NCBI GenBank assembly: GCA_019694165.1
Contig: JAIBCL010000006.1
Location: 124,001 to 188,000, forward strand
DNA length: 64,000 nucleotides
DNA from: Verrucomicrobiaceae bacterium
GTDB taxonomy: Bacteria > Verrucomicrobiota > Verrucomicrobiia > Verrucomicrobiales > Verrucomicrobiaceae
Reading direction: 5' to 3'
The position numbers and the translations under genes were made by a program. The notes below the pieces were generated by a model that searched no databases, had not been told where the DNA came from, and worked only from the letters and a program-made list of their open reading frames with translations. Shown one piece after another: positions 2,970 through 10,010 of the stretch. Positions within the stretch are counted from its first letter, which is position 1. The number at the start of each line of letters is the position of its first letter.

Positions 2970-5795
2970 ATGCCCGCTGCCCTTCCATCTGGCGACCACG
3001 ACATCTTCATCTCCTACGCGCACCAGGGTGACACTTCGTCGCGGGAGTCCGTCGCGGTGTTTGTGAAGCGGCTGCATGACGAGCTGGAGGCGGAGTTCTC
3101 CCGGCGCTTTGACCGCCCGCTGAGCATTTTCTTCGACCAGGAGGACATCCAGGACTTCGACCACTGGCAGGTTCGCTGCCATCGCGCGCTGCGTGGCTCG
3201 CGCTTCTTCATCGCCTGCCTCTCGCGCAGCTACCTGCGCAGTGATGCCTGCCGCTGGGAGTGGGAGGAGTGGTGCCGGCTTGAGGTGGAGCACGGCCTCG
3301 TCGGCCAAGGGGCCGCCTCGCTGTGGTTCGTGAGGCTGGAGGCGCTCGATGCGCCGGAAGACGCGGAACTGCTGCGCCAGTGGAAAGGCGATCTGCTCCA
3401 GCGCTTCCACATCCAGTGCCACGAATGGCGGCAGGACGATCCGTCCGCCTTTCTCGATGCCAGCGAGCGCGAGGAGCTGTCGCGCCTCACGCAGCATGTG
3501 GCGCAGCGGCTGCGGCTGCTCACGCTCGACCGCACCCGCAGCGGCAACCTGCCGTGGCCGAACGCGAACTTCGTCGGTCGCGAAACGGAGCTGGCGGCGC
3601 TGCGGAAGCACTTGATCGAGTCGCCTTCGCTCGTGCCCGCCGGCCTGCACGGCATCGGCGGCATGGGCAAGACCGCGCTCGCCCTCGCCTTCGCGCATCA
3701 CGAGGCGGATGCCTTCCCCGGCGGCTGCTGGCTGCTGCGCTGCGAGGGCCGCGACAATCTCACGGGTGTCTTCCGTTCCCTCGTCCACGATCTCGACCTC
3801 ACCGACAAGCTCACCGATGAGGAAAAGCAAAACGAAGCTCTCGCCGTGAAGCGCGTCCTCGCCCTGCTGCGCCCGCGCGGCCCCGCGCTCTTCGTGCTCG
3901 ACAACGTGGACCAGCCCGCCCTCCTCGCCCCTGCGCAGACCGCTTTCCTCAGCGCCGAGCCGTGGGCGCGGCTGCTCTTCACCACACGGCTCGCACCCTC
4001 TGAGTTCGAGACCGTAAACGCGGCGATCCATCCGATTGATGTGGACCGCCTGGCCGAAGATCAAGGCATCGAGCTGGTCCGCCGCTACCAGCCCGGCCAG
4101 ACCTTCGCCGCCTCATCCGACGCGGCCGCCGCGCGCGAGATCGTCCGCCTGCTCGACGGCCTCACTCTCGCCATCGAGACCGCAGCCGTCTATCTCGGCC
4201 AGAGTGACTCCCGCCTCGCCCCGCCCGAGCACGTCGTGAGCATCAGCGACTACGTCGAGCGCCTGCGCCACGACCTCGCCACCGGCGGCGCGGAAGGCGG
4301 GGCCAACCAGCTCAAGGAAATCACCGCCACCCTGCGCCCCACCCTCGCCCGCCTCGACGCCCCCGTGCGCACCGTGCTCCAAGTGTGCGCCCTCCTCGGC
4401 CCCGAAGCCATCGCCCTCCCCTGGCTCCGCGCCCTCGCCTCACAAAAACACCCCGAGCTGAAGGAAGCCGCCGATCTCCGCGAGAGCGACCCCTGGACCC
4501 GCCTCGTCCGTACCCTCATCGGCATGAGACTCCTCGCCACCACTCCCGAGCCGCGCGTCGTCACCATGCACCGCGTGCTGCATCGGGTGCTGGAGCGGGA
4601 GCTGAGGGACGAGCGCGACGATTTGCAAACTCAGTTGTCGAAACATGTGGAATCGCGCGCGGCTGAACTAGAGGGAACAATCCTTTGGAAGGATGCCCGT
4701 TGGGAACTCGAACCCTTAGGCGCATTGGCCGAATTGTGGGCAGACACGAATCATCTCCGTGCCGCCTGGCTGTGCAATCAAGCTGGTCGGCGCTGGAAAC
4801 ACCTCGCCAATTGGACGAAGGCGGAGCAGTTACTTCGCCACGCACTTGCGATTGGCGAGGCTAGCTTCGGGGCCGACCACCCCCAGATCACTGGAGACCT
4901 CAACGCTCTGGCGAGTTTGTTGCTCGTTACGAATCAACTGGGAGACGCCGAGGCTTTGATGCGGCGTGCACTTGCGATTGACGAGGCCAGTTTCGAGGCC
5001 AATCACCTCAACATCGCCAGAGACAGCGGCAATCTGGCGCAGTTACTGCAAGTCACGAGTCGGTTGGGTGAAGCCGAGATACTGATGCGGCGGACGCTGG
5101 CTATTTCCGAAGCCAGTCTCGGGGCCGACCACCCAGATTGTGCCGTCTGCCTCAACAATCTGGCGCTGTTGTTGCAAACGACGAATCGGTTTGCGGAGGC
5201 TGAACCGTTAATACGGCGGGCGCTGGCTATTACCGAAGCCAGCCTCGGGGCCGACCACCCAGATGTTGCGATTCGCCTCAATAATCTGGCGCTGTTGCTA
5301 CAAGCCACATATCGGCTGGGGGAGGCCGAGCCTTTGATGCGGCGTGCCGTGATTATTCTTGAGAAATCGATCGGAGAGAACCATCCAGATGTCGCCCGCC
5401 TCTTGAACAATTTGGCTCATTTGCTGATGACCATGAATCGGCTGGTGGAAGCCGAACCATTAATGAGGCGGGTGCTAGCGATTGACGAAACCAGCTTAGG
5501 AGCCGACCACCCCGAGGTCGCTAAAGACCTTAACAATCTTGCATTGTTGCTGGAAACAACGAATCGGTTTGCGGAGGCTGAGCCGTTATTTCATCGGGCG
5601 TTTTGTATCATCCAGGAGTTTCAACGCAGTACTGGCTATGCTCATTCCTCCCAGGCCCCGCTACGCCGTAACCTCCGAATGCATCTGGTGGCAAAGAGAA
5701 TGGGAAAAGGATTGGGAATTGGTTGTTTTGCCACGCTTTTCTTGGCGTTGATTGTTGTGATCGTTTGGTTCCTGCGCAGGCTGCTCTCTCTATAG
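2970..5795 (+). CDS. TIR-NB-ARC-TPR protein with C-terminal membrane helix (candidate NLR-type immune protein)
   Basis: 941 residues. Residues 1-150 are a TIR domain beginning DHDIFISYAHQGD; the SxxYxxSxxCxxE motif (85-97) supplies the expected catalytic Glu97, so NADase activity is plausible. Residues 195-480 are a STAND/NB-ARC ATPase: FVGRETEL, P-loop GIGGMGKT (228-235), Walker B ALFVLDN (306-312), LLFTTR, and an MHD-like TMHRVLH. Residues about 618-885 are kinesin-light-chain-type TPRs of exactly 42 residues with the signature ASLGADHP. A transmembrane segment (GIGCFATLFLALIVVIVWFL) ends the protein. TIR-STAND proteins are known phage-defence sensors in which the TPR part recognises a ligand and TIR depletes NAD+; that role is inferred here. 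The TPR half is visibly more AT-rich than the TIR/NB-ARC half. The protein stands alone, next to a RAYT/REP island. Confidence 0.93.
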   Translation: MPAALPSGDHDIFISYAHQGDTSSRESVAVFVKRLHDELEAEFSRRFDRPLSIFFDQEDIQDFDHWQVRCHRALRGSRFFIACLSRSYLRSDACRWEWEEWCRLEVEHGLVGQGAASLWFVRLEALDAPEDAELLRQWKGDLLQRFHIQCHEWRQDDPSAFLDASEREELSRLTQHVAQRLRLLTLDRTRSGNLPWPNANFVGRETELAALRKHLIESPSLVPAGLHGIGGMGKTALALAFAHHEADAFPGGCWLLRCEGRDNLTGVFRSLVHDLDLTDKLTDEEKQNEALAVKRVLALLRPRGPALFVLDNVDQPALLAPAQTAFLSAEPWARLLFTTRLAPSEFETVNAAIHPIDVDRLAEDQGIELVRRYQPGQTFAASSDAAAAREIVRLLDGLTLAIETAAVYLGQSDSRLAPPEHVVSISDYVERLRHDLATGGAEGGANQLKEITATLRPTLARLDAPVRTVLQVCALLGPEAIALPWLRALASQKHPELKEAADLRESDPWTRLVRTLIGMRLLATTPEPRVVTMHRVLHRVLERELRDERDDLQTQLSKHVESRAAELEGTILWKDARWELEPLGALAELWADTNHLRAAWLCNQAGRRWKHLANWTKAEQLLRHALAIGEASFGADHPQITGDLNALASLLLVTNQLGDAEALMRRALAIDEASFEANHLNIARDSGNLAQLLQVTSRLGEAEILMRRTLAISEASLGADHPDCAVCLNNLALLLQTTNRFAEAEPLIRRALAITEASLGADHPDVAIRLNNLALLLQATYRLGEAEPLMRRAVIILEKSIGENHPDVARLLNNLAHLLMTMNRLVEAEPLMRRVLAIDETSLGADHPEVAKDLNNLALLLETTNRFAEAEPLFHRAFCIIQEFQRSTGYAHSSQAPLRRNLRMHLVAKRMGKGLGIGCFATLFLALIVVIVWFLRRLLSL
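4822..5612 (+). repeat. 126-bp tandem repeats encoding TPR units
   Basis: Six in-register copies of a 126-bp unit lie inside the TIR-NB-ARC-TPR gene. The marker codons for (E/D)-x-S-x-G-A-D/N-H-P recur at 4857, 4983, 5109, 5235, 5361 and 5487, always 126 bp apart. Units around 5109-5320 share long near-identical stretches, which favours unit gain or loss by recombination. This would change the length of the ligand-sensing superhelix. Confidence 0.85.
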
Positions 5796-5806
5796 CAGCG
5801 GCAGCT

Positions 5807-6025
5807 ATGAGCACTACGTTCGAGCCATCAATGCGGAGAAAGGTGGTTGTCTACCTCAAATTCACCCGCGCCACGGGCCATCCGCATCCGCATCCGCACC
5901 TGCAAAGGGCCATCCGCAACTACGCCCGCTTGCTCACTGCCCTGGGCCGCAGCCCGCCCGAGGTGATGGCCCAGATCAACGCCCTCTGCCGCCCCTACGG
6001 CATCCAGCTCGGCGGCGGTTCATGA
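5807..6025 (+). CDS. Orphan C-terminal cap of a TPR protein (72 aa), probably a gene remnant
   Basis: 72 residues starting MSTTFEPSMRRKVVVYLK and containing FTRATGHPHPHPHLQ ... RNYARLLTALGRSPPEVMAQI. In kinesin-light-chain-type TPR proteins of cyanobacteria and the PVC group, a segment of this kind (FTRxTGHxHPHL...NYxxLLxxMG) is the usual C-terminal cap after the last TPR. Here it stands alone, 11 bp after the stop of the TIR gene, whose own end (FQRSTGYAHSS...) is a degenerate version of the same motif followed by a membrane helix. It may be a translated fragment or debris left when the C-terminus of the NLR was replaced. No convincing ribosome binding site was seen. Its recognition rests on motif memory, not an alignment. 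Confidence 0.5.
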   Translation: MSTTFEPSMRRKVVVYLKFTRATGHPHPHPHLQRAIRNYARLLTALGRSPPEVMAQINALCRPYGIQLGGGS

Positions 6026-6026
6026 G

Positions 6027-6278
6027 GTAGGGCGCTTGCTCCTGCAAGCGCCGCCGTGCGGAGGATAAAGCCTTGGTTGATGTTTTGCTTGATGCGGAGA
6101 TTGCGCGGCCCCTCACGGCGGATGGAGGCTTCGTTCACGCTTTGCTTGATGCGGAGATTGCACGGCCTCTCGCGGCGGATTGGGGACAATCCGCCCTACC
6201 ACGCCTGCTGCCTTCGTTCACGCTTTGCTTGATACGGAGATTGCGCGGCCCCTCGCGGCGGATGGAGGACCATCCGCC
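6027..6278. repeat. REP/BIME-like hairpin repeats, left of the RAYT gene
   Basis: GTAGGGCG leads into a hairpin at 6031-6052 (arms GGCGCTTGC / GCAAGCGCC, loop TCCT). Then come several copies of a spacer containing TTGATGCGGAGATTGCGCGG and two hairpins of the opposite type: 6174-6195 (GGCGGATTG / CAATCCGCC, loop GGGA) and 6257-6278 (GGCGGATGG / CCATCCGCC, loop AGGA). The second type ends CCGCCCTAC and is in essence the reverse complement of the first, as in bacterial interspersed mosaic elements. No gene was seen in this stretch. Confidence 0.85.
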
Positions 6279-6305
6279 CCACCTGTTGGACATTCCGCCC
6301 TGCCA

Positions 6306-6791
6306 CTACCACGCCCCGGCGACTAGGCCGCCGGAGGTCCAGTGCAGTTGATGCGGCCAGTCCTCGGGGCGGGTGCAGAGATTCTTCCGCACGGGATTGT
6401 GGCGGATGTAGTGATGCTTCTCGGTCACCTCGTTTTCATTCCGCAGGCGATGATCGAAAAAGCCGTCTTGCCAGGCGATGCCGATCGTGCGCGCGGTGAA
6501 TCGTTTCCAGGCTTTGAAGAGATCGCCCATCACCGCATCGCGCGGGAAGCTCATCAGCGCGTGAAAGTGATCCGGCATGAGCAGCAGCAGGGTGACATGC
6601 CACTTCTTCTGCTCGTGATAAAATCGCGCGGCATCGAGCAAGGCGGCGGCGGTCTGCGGCAGGGTGAGCTGGTGGCGACCGCGTTCAGCGCAGTTCACCG
6701 TGATGAAAAAGAGCGAGCCATCCTCGACCCAGTGCGGCACGTCATGGTGCAGGCGTCTGCGCTCGGGAAGATCGTCGTCGTAGGCAGACAT
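6306..6791 (-). CDS. REP-associated tyrosine transposase (RAYT), IS200-like HUH family
   Basis: 161 residues of the Y1 transposase fold (Transposase_17 family). In the protein counted from this start, the metal-binding HUH motif is the HFH of MPDHFHAL (residues about 75-77) and the catalytic tyrosine is in HHYIRHNPVRKNL (about residue 128). These enzymes nick and join single strands at REP hairpins and are thought to disperse REPs; they are usually single-copy and not part of a classic IS. The frame stays open 45 bp upstream of 6791 and reaches the REP array from its far side; I chose the inner ATG (MSAYDDDLPERR) because the family begins there. Hairpin arrays lie on both sides (6027-6278, 6816-7390), the expected context. 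All motifs are intact. Confidence 0.92.
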   Translation of the reverse strand: MSAYDDDLPERRRLHHDVPHWVEDGSLFFITVNCAERGRHQLTLPQTAAALLDAARFYHEQKKWHVTLLLLMPDHFHALMSFPRDAVMGDLFKAWKRFTARTIGIAWQDGFFDHRLRNENEVTEKHHYIRHNPVRKNLCTRPEDWPHQLHWTSGGLVAGAW

Positions 6792-6815
6792 GGTGGATGA
6801 TGCTGGCAAGGTTGG

Positions 6816-7390
6816 GTAGGGCGCTTGCTCCCGCAAGCGCCGCCGTGCGGAGATCGAGGATTTCGGTCATGCGTTGTTTGGTGCGGAGAGTTCGCGACGA
6901 GGTAGGGCGCTCAGTCCTCTGAGCGCCGCCGTGCGGGGGCAGAGGGCTTCATTCACGCATTGTCTGGTGCGGAGAGTTCACGGCCTCCCGCGGCGGACTG
7001 AGGACAGTCCGCCCTACCTTGGAGAATGGGAACCAGCGGCAGCCAGGTAGGGCGCTTGCTCCTGCAAGCGCCGCCGTGCGGAGATTGGGGCTTCGTTGAT
7101 CCGCAGCTTTGATGCGGACGGTTGGCGGCCCAACGCGGCGGATGGAGGACCATCCGCCCTACCTTGGCGGCTGTAGGCCGGTGGCAACCGGGTAGGGCGC
7201 TCAGTCCTCTGAGCGCCGTCGGGCGAGGGGAAAGGGCTTCGGTCACGCATAGCTTGATGCGGAGAGTTCACGGCCCCTCGCGGCGGGCTGAGGACAGCCC
7301 GCCCTACCCGGCGGACATCTTCGTTCATGCATTGCTTGATGCGGATGGTTGGTGGACCAACGCGGCGGCTGGAGGACCATCCGCCCTGCC
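6816..7390. repeat. REP/BIME-like composite hairpin array, right of the RAYT gene
   Basis: Eight 22-nt hairpins lie at 6820-6841, 6906-6927, 6992-7013, 7051-7072, 7137-7158, 7196-7217, 7282-7303 and 7364-7385. Type A reads GGCG-stem with a TCCT/TCCC loop after GTAGG. Type B reads GGCGG-stem with an AGGA loop before CCGCCCT. Most are arranged A-spacer-B as inverted pairs of about 110 bp. Stems differ between copies but stay paired: GCTTGC/GCAAGC or GCTCAG/CTGAGC in type A; GGATGG/CCATCC, GGACTG/CAGTCC or GGGCTG/CAGCCC in type B. The last copy (7364) has one C-T mismatch. It abuts the hrpB stop codon and may terminate transcription. There is no gene in this 600-bp stretch. Confidence 0.9.
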
Positions 7391-7391
7391 T

Positions 7392-10010
7392 TCAACGCCA
7401 CTCATGCTTCGGATAGCGTCCCTTGAGCTGGTTCTTCACGGCGGGGTAGCTCTCGCGCCAGAAGCGGCCGAGATCGCTGGTGGTCTGGATGGGGCGCTGC
7501 GCGGGTGAGAGGAGATGGACGGTGACCGTGACGCGACCGGCGGCCACCTTGGGGTTTTCGTTCACGTCGTAGAGCTGTTGCAGCACGACGGAGACGGACG
7601 GCTGCTGCTTTTCGTCATAGACGATCTTGGCGGTCTTGCCATTCTTGAGCGAGAGCCGCTCGGGTGCGTATCGTTCCAGCAGATCGCGCTGCATGGGATT
7701 CAGCCATTGGTGCAGGGCAGGGAAGACTTCCTTGTCCTTCAATTGCCGATACGCCGTCGCACCGTGGCAGACTTGCTCGATGATGATGCGGCGGTCTTCG
7801 TCGGTGATCGGCGGGATCTCCAGCTCGGGCATCCATTTGGCGAGGCAGTTCACGCGTGTGATCCATTGCTCGACGCGTTCGTTCCAGAGATTGAGCACGA
7901 GACGACCGGCGACGACTTCATCGGCGAGAAGCGTGGCGGCCGTGGCTTCATCCGGCTCGCCGCGCTCGCGGGAGGAGAGAACAAGGTCGCGGAAGCGCGT
8001 CTCTTCGACATTCACCACGCGGCGGTTGATCGCGTCGAAAAAGGCGCGCTTGCCGGTGACGATGTCGTCGGGGAAAAGCTCGCGCAGCCATTCTTCCTCG
8101 ATGCGCGTGACATTGCCGAGCTGCACCTGCAGAGCCTTGCCCTGAATCTCGGTGATCTCCGACGCGACGAGCAGACGCGGCGGCTTGATGTGCGCGTCTT
8201 TGGCGAGATGGCCGCGATTGCCGCCGGTGAGATTGTAAACTCGCGAGCCCTGACCGGTCTCGCAGCCGACGTGATCGGAGAAGCCCGCGAGGATCGTCTT
8301 CGCGAGCGCCTCGGGCGTGCCAGGCGATTCGGAAAAAGGAAGACCATGCCGCTGGCAGAGTCGGAGGAATTGATCGGCGCTTCTCGCGGCCTCGCGTGAA
8401 GCGAGCGCGTGGATGCCGTGCTGCGAGCAGGCGTTCGTGTCGAAGTTCAATGCGACGGCACGCTCGAAGGCTCGGAGCAGCGCCTGGAATTCGCTGATGT
8501 CGCCATTCTCCCAGAAGTCTTCGTTCTTGCGGTTCGTGTTGTCTTTGGTCGCGAGCAAAATCTCGCGGCCCTGCGCGATGGCAGCGCATTGCGCGGCCTC
8601 ATGCAGACAGCCTTGCTCCGCTGCGGCGAGCAACATTCGCGAGAAGCGCGGATGCAACGGGAAACCCGCCATCTTGCGGCCGATGGGCGTGACGTTGCTG
8701 TCGTGATCGAGCGCGCCGAGATCGTGCAGCAGCCGTTCGGCGCGATTGAGCGCATTGTCGGACGGTCGCTGGAACCATTCGATGTTTAGCGCGGCTTTGT
8801 CGGATGCCGTTCGGAGAGCGAGCATGGCCTCGGACAAATCGAGCCTCGCGATCTCCGGAGCCTCGCTTTCCGGGCGATGCAAATGCTCGCGCTCGGGCCA
8901 GAGACGAATGCAAACGCCAGGCCCTGTGCGGCCCGCGCGACCGGCGCGCTGCTCGGCGGAGGCGCGGCTGATCTTTTGAATCGTGAGCGTGTTGATGCCG
9001 CGACGCGGATCGTAGGCCGCGACGCGCGCGAGGCCGCAATCGACCACCGCACGCACGCCTTCGATCGTGAGCGACGTTTCAGCGACATTCGTCGAGACGA
9101 TGATCTTCCGATGATCACTCGGCGCGACGGCCGCATCCTGCTCCTGCGGCGGCAGCTCGCCATGCAGCGGAAGGATGCGGTAGTTGCGCGCGAAGCTGCG
9201 ACCGCTCAGCGCGGCGATCGTTTTCCGAATCTCGTAACCGCCCGGCATGAAGACGAGGATGTCTCCATCGAACGACGAGGACTGAAGGGACGATGGGGAC
9301 AAAAGGGATTCGCATGCGCGTGCCGCCTGATCCCAGACGGCTTCGTCGTAGCCGAGTTTGTTTTTTTGCGGGGGCTGGTAGCGCACATCTACGGGAAAGG
9401 TGCGGCCTTCTGACTCGAGCATTTTGCACGGCTTCAAAAAGTCGTGCAGCGGCCCAGGCACCAGCGTGGCCGACATGACGATGATCTTGAGGTCGGGCCG
9501 TCGCGCCTTCTGCATCGCATGTGCCCAGGCCAGACACAGATCGCCATCGAGATGCCGCTCGTGGAATTCATCGATCACGAGACAGCCGACCTTCGAGAGC
9601 GTGGGATCTTCCAGCAAATGGCGCAGCATCACGCCTTCGGTCACATACATGAGCCGCGTGTCCTTGCTGCTCACATTCTCAAAGCGCACCTGATAACCCA
9701 CCTCTTCGCCGAGCCGGCCACCGCGCTCCTTCGCCACACGCGCCGCTAGCATTCGCGCGGCGATGCGCCGTGGTTGCAGTACCATCACGCGTTTGTCGCC
9801 GAGAATGCCGGAGTCGAGCACGAACTTCGGCACCTGCGTCGATTTGCCCGAGCCCGTCGGCGCTTTGATCAGCAGATTCGGCAGTGCGGGATCGCGCATC
9901 GCCGTGAGTACGGCATCGCGGATTTCGTAGATGGGAAGCTGTTCGGGCGAGGGCAAGGCGGTGGAGATCGTGGGTAGTGGAGATGGTGGCTGGTGGTGAT
10001 GAGGCGTCAA
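7392..10010 (-). CDS. hrpB: ATP-dependent RNA helicase HrpB
   Basis: 872 residues, a DEAH-box superfamily 2 helicase. Motif I is PTGSGKST (51-58), motif II DEFH (147-150), motif III MSATL (about 179-183), and the helicase C-terminal block SAEQRAGRAGRTGPG is clear. The end of the protein (PAQRPIQTTSDLGRFW ... RYPKHEWR) is the diagnostic HrpB C-terminal domain. HrpB is a conserved but non-essential cytoplasmic helicase of uncertain substrate, and the length fits the family. The N-terminus is His/Pro-rich (MTPHHHQPPSP) and not conserved, so the true start could be slightly later. It is divergent from guaA with 146 bp between them; its 3' end abuts a REP hairpin. Confidence 0.95.
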   Translation of the reverse strand: MTPHHHQPPSPLPTISTALPSPEQLPIYEIRDAVLTAMRDPALPNLLIKAPTGSGKSTQVPKFVLDSGILGDKRVMVLQPRRIAARMLAARVAKERGGRLGEEVGYQVRFENVSSKDTRLMYVTEGVMLRHLLEDPTLSKVGCLVIDEFHERHLDGDLCLAWAHAMQKARRPDLKIIVMSATLVPGPLHDFLKPCKMLESEGRTFPVDVRYQPPQKNKLGYDEAVWDQAARACESLLSPSSLQSSSFDGDILVFMPGGYEIRKTIAALSGRSFARNYRILPLHGELPPQEQDAAVAPSDHRKIIVSTNVAETSLTIEGVRAVVDCGLARVAAYDPRRGINTLTIQKISRASAEQRAGRAGRTGPGVCIRLWPEREHLHRPESEAPEIARLDLSEAMLALRTASDKAALNIEWFQRPSDNALNRAERLLHDLGALDHDSNVTPIGRKMAGFPLHPRFSRMLLAAAEQGCLHEAAQCAAIAQGREILLATKDNTNRKNEDFWENGDISEFQALLRAFERAVALNFDTNACSQHGIHALASREAARSADQFLRLCQRHGLPFSESPGTPEALAKTILAGFSDHVGCETGQGSRVYNLTGGNRGHLAKDAHIKPPRLLVASEITEIQGKALQVQLGNVTRIEEEWLRELFPDDIVTGKRAFFDAINRRVVNVEETRFRDLVLSSRERGEPDEATAATLLADEVVAGRLVLNLWNERVEQWITRVNCLAKWMPELEIPPITDEDRRIIIEQVCHGATAYRQLKDKEVFPALHQWLNPMQRDLLERYAPERLSLKNGKTAKIVYDEKQQPSVSVVLQQLYDVNENPKVAAGRVTVTVHLLSPAQRPIQTTSDLGRFWRESYPAVKNQLKGRYPKHEWR

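Follow-up and report, generated by a model that had tools for sequence, protein, structure and literature searches.

GTAG REPs, palindromes with a GTAG or GTGG tag, have been sorted into 24 families whose hosts include the verrucomicrobium Opitutus terrae (Di Nocera et al. 2013; PMC3733652). The available text of that survey describes stems of 6-13 bp with short loops, complementary alternatives among the stem residues, dimers in head-head order, in some families also heterodimers, and RAYTs (REP-associated tyrosine transposases) nearby, all of which recur in the system reported here. The same text proposes heterodimers as a protection against perfect inverted repeats and records REPs inside ORFs, the GTAG cases being mostly from O. 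terrae; the majority of the ORF inserts are dimers or groups coding for 20-30 amino acids. Intragenic REPs were not seen in the available portions of PMC2817692, PMC3686654 and PMC6006769.

Further related systems are the RAYTs and BIMEs of Stenotrophomonas and enterobacteria (Nunvar 2010; PMC2817692). As in the locus analysed here, inverted GT[AG]G REPs with perfectly complementary palindromes lie on both sides of a RAYT, and their paired changes are there called 'selection for complementary mutations'. In the accessible part of that paper, RAYTs as defined by its criteria occur only in gammaproteobacteria, whereas the present locus belongs to another phylum and has in-gene copies. REPINs (Bertels and Rainey 2011; PMC3116915), as far as their description was available, share the inverted REP doublet as moving unit, here a putative one, but the doublets reported below have unequal stems and hence would form no single perfect long hairpin. 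In-frame insertion in genes is shared by the Rickettsia palindromic elements (RPE); the available text of PMC3733652 describes them as CGTC repeats (RPE-4, RPE-6) or as the longer RPE-1, in contrast to the GTAG tag and the RAYT locus in the same genome found here.

Judged from the available text of PMC3733652 and PMC2817692, it is already known, also for a verrucomicrobium, that the stems of GTAG REPs can change in a complementary way, form heterodimers, have RAYTs as neighbours and occur inside genes, and a verrucomicrobial RAYT/REP/BIME system is of a known kind. Compared with the families in the available part of PMC3733652, the present system has another host and the stem family GGCG-N5-TCCY, which may coincide with one of the 24; it also shows no gene avoidance in one genome and recurrent entry into one loop of Ser/Thr kinases. 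Within the literature searched, the missing gene avoidance beside mostly extragenic relatives and the repeated entry into the kinase loop appear to be new. No report of REP inserts in kinases was found in that literature, subscription journals and preprints lying outside its coverage.

A RAYT gene surrounded by eleven inverted REPs

The locus lies in a stretch of 64,000 nucleotides (the window). Eleven hairpins of two reciprocal types had been proposed to flank a transposase, and all of them are present between positions 6027 and 7389, five of A type on the plus strand and six of B type on the minus strand. Each consists of a tetranucleotide tag and a stem of 9 bp that is closed by a loop of 4 nt. 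The A-type hairpins have the inner stem CTTGC at 6027..6053 (loop TCCT), 6816..6842 (loop TCCC; overlapping the 5' end of the longest RAYT ORF) and 7047..7073 (loop TCCT), and CTCAG at 6902..6928 and 7192..7218 (both with loop TCCT). The B-type hairpins are located at 6173..6199 (GATTG, loop TCCC), 6256..6282 (GATGG, loop TCCT, tag GTGG), 6991..7017 (GACTG, loop TCCT), 7136..7162 (GATGG, loop TCCT), 7281..7307 (GGCTG, loop TCCT) and 7363..7389, the last being in decay with tag GCAG and one A.G mismatch. The other ten stems are perfectly paired.

GGCG/CGCC and the loop are constant in these hairpins while the five inner pairs vary. The initial annotation had described the loop (TCCT) and the GTAGG edge as fixed. 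This holds in a relaxed form: the loop is TCCY, with nine TCCT and two TCCC, and the tag is GTAG in 9/11 hairpins, the exceptions being those at 6256 and 7363. The segment 6902..7307 is a tandem array (BIME) of three A-linker-B doublets with a period of 145 (repeat spacings 145 and 145). At 6072..6172 the doublet linker occurs twice in succession, the first copy without an intact B hairpin, as judged from repeat families and the 119-nt linker; this double linker is likely the remnant of a lost REP. A degenerate REP-like remnant at 6283..6304 was recognised by its repeat family and has no covariance-model match. A search of positions 5700-7600 against Rfam revealed no known RNA family.

The gene itself extends over 6306..6836 on the minus strand and codes for 176 amino acids if translation begins at the listed TTG; an ATG within the frame (MSAYDDD..) at 6791 is an alternative start. 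Its frame scored 97.9 bits against the curated RAYT family NF047646 (cut-off 80), in agreement with the earlier designation as a RAYT, and 21.2 bits against Pfam Y1_Tnp, just under the 23-bit cut-off. The closest PDB match is 4er8, TnpA-REP of E. coli (E 2.5e-8). The protein contains the HUH motif as HFH (PDHFHAL), a tyrosine in YIRHNPV and the motif WQDGFFDH, and alignment showed that the HUH and tyrosine motifs are kept in relatives. By alignment with 4er8, the tyrosine of YIRHNPV is presumably the catalytic one.

The locus is bounded by a TIR/NB-ARC/TPR gene (2970-5795, plus strand) and an hrpB helicase gene (7392-10010, minus strand). The former encodes a large protein, possibly of signalling or defence, for which FxSxx-type models scored under the cut-off.

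Although 17 RAYT-like places exist in the genome, recurrent GGCG..TCC hairpins adjoin only the RAYT of the window, which has inverted REPs of its own class on both flanks. In IS200/IS605 elements the transposase gene itself is multiplied along with the element; the RAYT here is a single-copy gene, the next-best matches in its own genome being 36% and 29% identical. The other 16 RAYT-like genes were considered as owners of the REPs and rejected because none has such REPs adjoining.

The REP family across the genome

A first loose pattern gave 82 matches, compared to 52 for its reversed control, and was thus unspecific by itself. Its 82 rows yielded 21 distinct hairpins after omission of (i) repeats; (ii) rows of another spacing (one with a 3-nt loop); (iii) three ill-paired rows of CGTCG type; and (iv) non-hairpins. 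The covariance model built from these 21 distinct stems was run on the 7.8-Mb genome and found 105 matches at E<=1 and 98 at E<=0.01, which excludes that the locus is without further copies in its genome. A total of 102 full-length matches were tallied after omission of the weak match C6:358052 and then, for their length, of two of the remaining 104. The tag is GTAG in 69 of them and GTGG in 20 (GT[AG]G in 89/102), the loop TCCT in 69 and TCCC in 29, and 25 distinct inner stems occur. Out of 918 stem cells, 902 are Watson-Crick pairs, two are G.U and 14 are unpaired. The family thus has many copies per genome, in which a GC-rich palindrome directly follows a 5' GT[AG]G, as in GTAG REPs. Head-head pairs, as in BIMEs, number 42 among 107 hairpins, in addition to the array of period 145.

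A chance origin of the hairpins was rejected on the basis of a stem-shuffle test (see below) and a tight sequence pattern, which matched 285 times in 11 relatives and not once when reversed; the loosest pattern alone would be insufficient. The REPs are mostly arranged in inverted A-linker-B doublets with differing stems, in line with the BIME-like inverted pairs noticed before. The verrucomicrobial host that had been suspected is borne out by the named relatives with related RAYT loci, which belong to the Verrucomicrobiota.

We therefore read the locus and its copies as a RAYT/REP system of Verrucomicrobiaceae (a REPtron) with paired-stem doublets, which are probably mobilised by the RAYT; judged from comparison of sequences, we give this reading a probability of about 0.82.

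REP numbers and RAYT presence among relatives

Co-occurrence was surveyed in 68 genomes of the family, among which G001 is the only other one of the same genus. A close RAYT is present in nine, namely the own genome and eight others whose RAYTs are 54-76% identical to it, one of the eight being interrupted by an internal stop. REP matches (5 to 82 each) occur in all nine, compared to 26 of the 59 others (Mann-Whitney p 7e-6). Within the largest genus, g8, REP number was related to RAYT as well (p 0.0016), while presence or absence alone (6/6 versus 26/42) was not significant (p 0.16). Since 26 of the 59 genomes without this RAYT have REPs, with up to 33 matches (G059), REPs either persist without the RAYT or are served by another enzyme. 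Several genomes without a close RAYT, including G059, G047 and G019, have 19 to 33 REP matches.

Six related RAYT loci (L048-L053) have the same flanking architecture with other stem pairs, and four loci of Opitutaceae type (L057, L059, L060 and L065) have equal hairpins on both flanks; at the threshold used, some of the 23 related RAYT loci have no hairpins. A strict agreement between RAYT tree and stem type was considered. Each of the two stem groups requires one change on the tree, a result equalled by 47 of 500 shuffles, so no such agreement is claimed.

Compensated changes in the stems

As a covariance model rewards pairing, the tight pattern, which imposes no pairing rule and leaves the five inner stem pairs free, provides the fairer covariation test. 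Among its 284 listed matches in 11 related genomes, 240 hairpins are fully paired, and Watson-Crick pairs at positions 5-9 were found in 272-278 of the 284 as opposed to 86-264 expected with independent arms. In the own genome, the 21 distinct stems gave a covariation score of 0.580 versus a mean of 0.134 for shuffled stems, and 0/500 shuffles scored as high. The pairwise change of stem bases that had been noticed in the single locus is borne out, and copies lacking paired substitutions, which would have contradicted it, are excluded as an account of these data.

The initial annotation had seen selection or templating at the level of structure in these changes. The paired changes stand, with both processes as candidate causes. 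In a templating process (quasipalindrome correction), replication would use one arm as the pattern for the other, with no selection acting on the helix. The high degree of pairing favours such a process, as 267 of 302 exact template matches have 9/9 pairs. However, one-armed intermediates exist. Stem pair 3 is C-G in 222, A-T in 52 and A-G in 10 of the 284 matches, and one A.G was seen among the model matches of the own genome (G000). Moreover, at an intergenic site common to four genomes and identified by alignable flanks, the stem foot reads GGCG/CGCC in G033, GGAG/CGCC (A.G) in G020 and GGAG/CTCC in G059, so that the intermediate is found beside both end states. This site would represent a stepwise compensated pair; copy-to-copy orthology is likely, short of certain because the arrays differ in unit number. 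The existence of mismatched intermediates argues against obligatory templating of both arms and suggests that stem changes arrive one arm at a time. We thus regard templating as quite improbable.

The mismatches at pair 3 are biased: a 5' A facing a 3' G occurs in 10/284, the opposite, a 5' C facing a 3' T, in none. This is explained neither by simple two-way templating nor by the RAYT/REP reading.

Under the RAYT/REP reading, single-stranded DNA would be recognised by the RAYT through tag, foot and loop, with the stem needed only as a 9-bp helix. Any fully paired stem would leave a copy mobilisable, and mobility would end with loss of pairing. The copies offer a natural covariation set for the RAYT substrate, with tag, foot and loop fixed and the stem free, from which it is predicted that the stem is read by its shape and not by its sequence.

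Doublets are formed by unlike stems

The composition of doublets was determined in 158 regions from 11 genomes. Hairpins with at least 7/9 pairs were used, 381 out of 410. No inverted neighbours shared the same 5' stem arm (0/151, comprising 0/93 head-head and 0/58 tail-tail pairs), compared to 23/38 neighbours in the same orientation. Shuffling within genomes gave a mean of 26.1 inverted neighbours with a shared stem and a minimum of 13 in 2000 trials. The elements are accordingly no REPINs, in which two like inverted REPs make one long hairpin, as none of the 93 head-head pairs has a stem arm in common. One exception to the rule was encountered outside the set of 381: the two stems of the degenerate doublet C38:146267 are identical, and one of its halves has a mutated tag and loop.

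Stems split into two sides in 10/11 genomes, while no such split was obtained after pooling the genomes. The notion of just two fixed stem classes failed at this point. The doublet rule may reflect plain descent from an unequal ancestral doublet. That the side taken by a stem can vary between genomes hints at a possible extra pressure against perfect inverted repeats. In the proposed mechanism the doublet would be the unit of copying and movement, and its unlike stems would keep the two hairpins apart and prevent formation of one long hairpin. Pairing between the loops of a doublet was also considered and dropped, as the loops of inverted copies are complementary by construction and mixes of TCCC and TCCT occur.

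REPs inside genes

REP clusters were counted as lying in genes when within an ORF of at least 300 amino acids with coding-like base composition. By this rule 39 of the 53 clusters of the own genome are in genes (32/53 with at least 600 amino acids), as are 193 of 264 random stretches of the same regions, i.e. the clusters do not avoid genes. As the ORF rule can include frames that are not genes, a firmer count is provided by the 21/53 clusters that lie in one open frame with Pfam or kinase-fold evidence to either side of them. Applied to relatives, the ORF rule gave 9/40 in G034, 2/21 in G020, 3/20 in G033, 2/15 in G059, 4/17 in G001, 0/5 in G019, 0/7 in G031, 1/8 in G003, 2/3 in G045 and 0/3 in G047; with controls of 56 to 89%, the fractions of most relatives are far lower. 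The extragenic position implied by the name REP does not apply to most clusters of the own genome. Published GTAG repeats, however, include intragenic ones (available text of PMC3733652), so that position does not serve to define them in that survey.

These positions bear on another explanation of the hairpins, by which they would be kept for a local RNA function, e.g. at transcript ends or in mRNA stability, under selection on the RNA at each site and with an incidental RAYT. It would fit the location outside genes in most relatives and the linkers between paired hairpins, which have drifted far while the hairpins remain paired. Against it stand the clusters of the own genome, whose share in genes matches that of random stretches, the conservation of tag (GT[AG]G) and loop (TCCY) beyond what pairing requires, the REP numbers that track the presence of the RAYT, and the rarity of G.U pairs. 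We consider a local RNA function very unlikely as the main explanation.

Unpaired stem cells are more frequent in intragenic REPs (20/621) than elsewhere (2/315; p 0.012), and hairpin upkeep thus seems weaker there. In the RAYT/REP system as proposed, frame-keeping insertions would survive in tolerant loops and in linkers rich in Ala and Pro, chiefly those of the kinase family, and the TAG within the tag would rule out one of three reading frames.

Empty sites in relatives were found for individual genes. An HrpA-type helicase (C34:61986) contains a 38-amino-acid REP stretch in frame that has no counterpart in 29/29 aligned orthologues (29 loci out of 35 other genomes with a match). A proline racemase (C32:68610) has an in-frame insert as well. 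Its gene was matched in 26 other genomes, of which 25 have both halves and the 26th has one half only; none has a REP-coded middle in that gene. With palindromes linked to a RAYT entering genes in frame and empty sites in relatives, the survival of REPs in coding sequence and their effects on proteins become addressable gene by gene.

Six-codon in-frame repeats were observed beside in-gene REPs of the own genome (G000), at C34:81037 (L096), C57:282535 (L108) and C32:68610 (L094). GRALGE is present three times and TIASRP/AVASRP several times, as if a REP edge had seeded tandem growth in 18-nt steps.

G000 (C22:377409; L089) and G003 (C13:841; L196) share an N-6 methylase gene that carries a REP doublet, one stem of which has a G.T pair. 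The identity of 91-97% in stretches between these two different genera points to a putative recent transfer of the gene together with its REPs.

Recurrent inserts in one loop of Ser/Thr kinases

Nineteen of the 53 REP clusters (20 with one weak match) are located in kinase frames, where about one would be expected; for this estimate, made by hand, the 51 kinase frames were taken as about 1.9% of the genome. In 9/51 Ser/Thr kinases of the genome the REP insert is at the same loop. Alignment with PknB (1mru) placed it between the two strands preceding the hinge, presumably beta 4 and beta 5. The excess is in part due to gene duplication, which in the proposed mechanism would multiply inserts within the kinase family.

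The inserts might all descend from one old insertion in an ancestral kinase that was spread by duplication and gene conversion. In favour of this, three pairs of inserts (C9, C56 and C57) are identical or nearly so, and the C9 and C66 inserts have a common sequence just upstream. A tree was made of 32 of the 51 kinase rows, i.e. 27 with a GGMG glycine loop and five insert rows; C22:353989, which is cut short, was omitted. On this tree the insert requires five gains or losses, at least four being forced by well-supported branches, though losses could replace gains. Kinases C9:32170 and C9:39513 carry the insert and their sister C9:47176 on the same contig is without it. In the C20 insert the first hairpin is read in another frame, as VGR instead of GRA, and the helicase, the racemase and other unrelated genes hold inserts too. 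The tree, the differing frame and the inserts in unrelated genes speak against a single origin, which we consider doubtful. The converse and far-reaching reading is that in this lineage the RAYT/REP system generates in-frame protein inserts, with doublets entering coding sequence freely, and that it entered the kinase loop several times independently, thereby diversifying signalling kinases, possibly to the benefit of the host; taken as a whole, this is unlikely.

A further kinase gene, C22:354273 (L088), contains five REPs, four of them in an array of 96-nt period, before the second part of the kinase domain. The kinase, in a frame of 372 amino acids, looks truncated.
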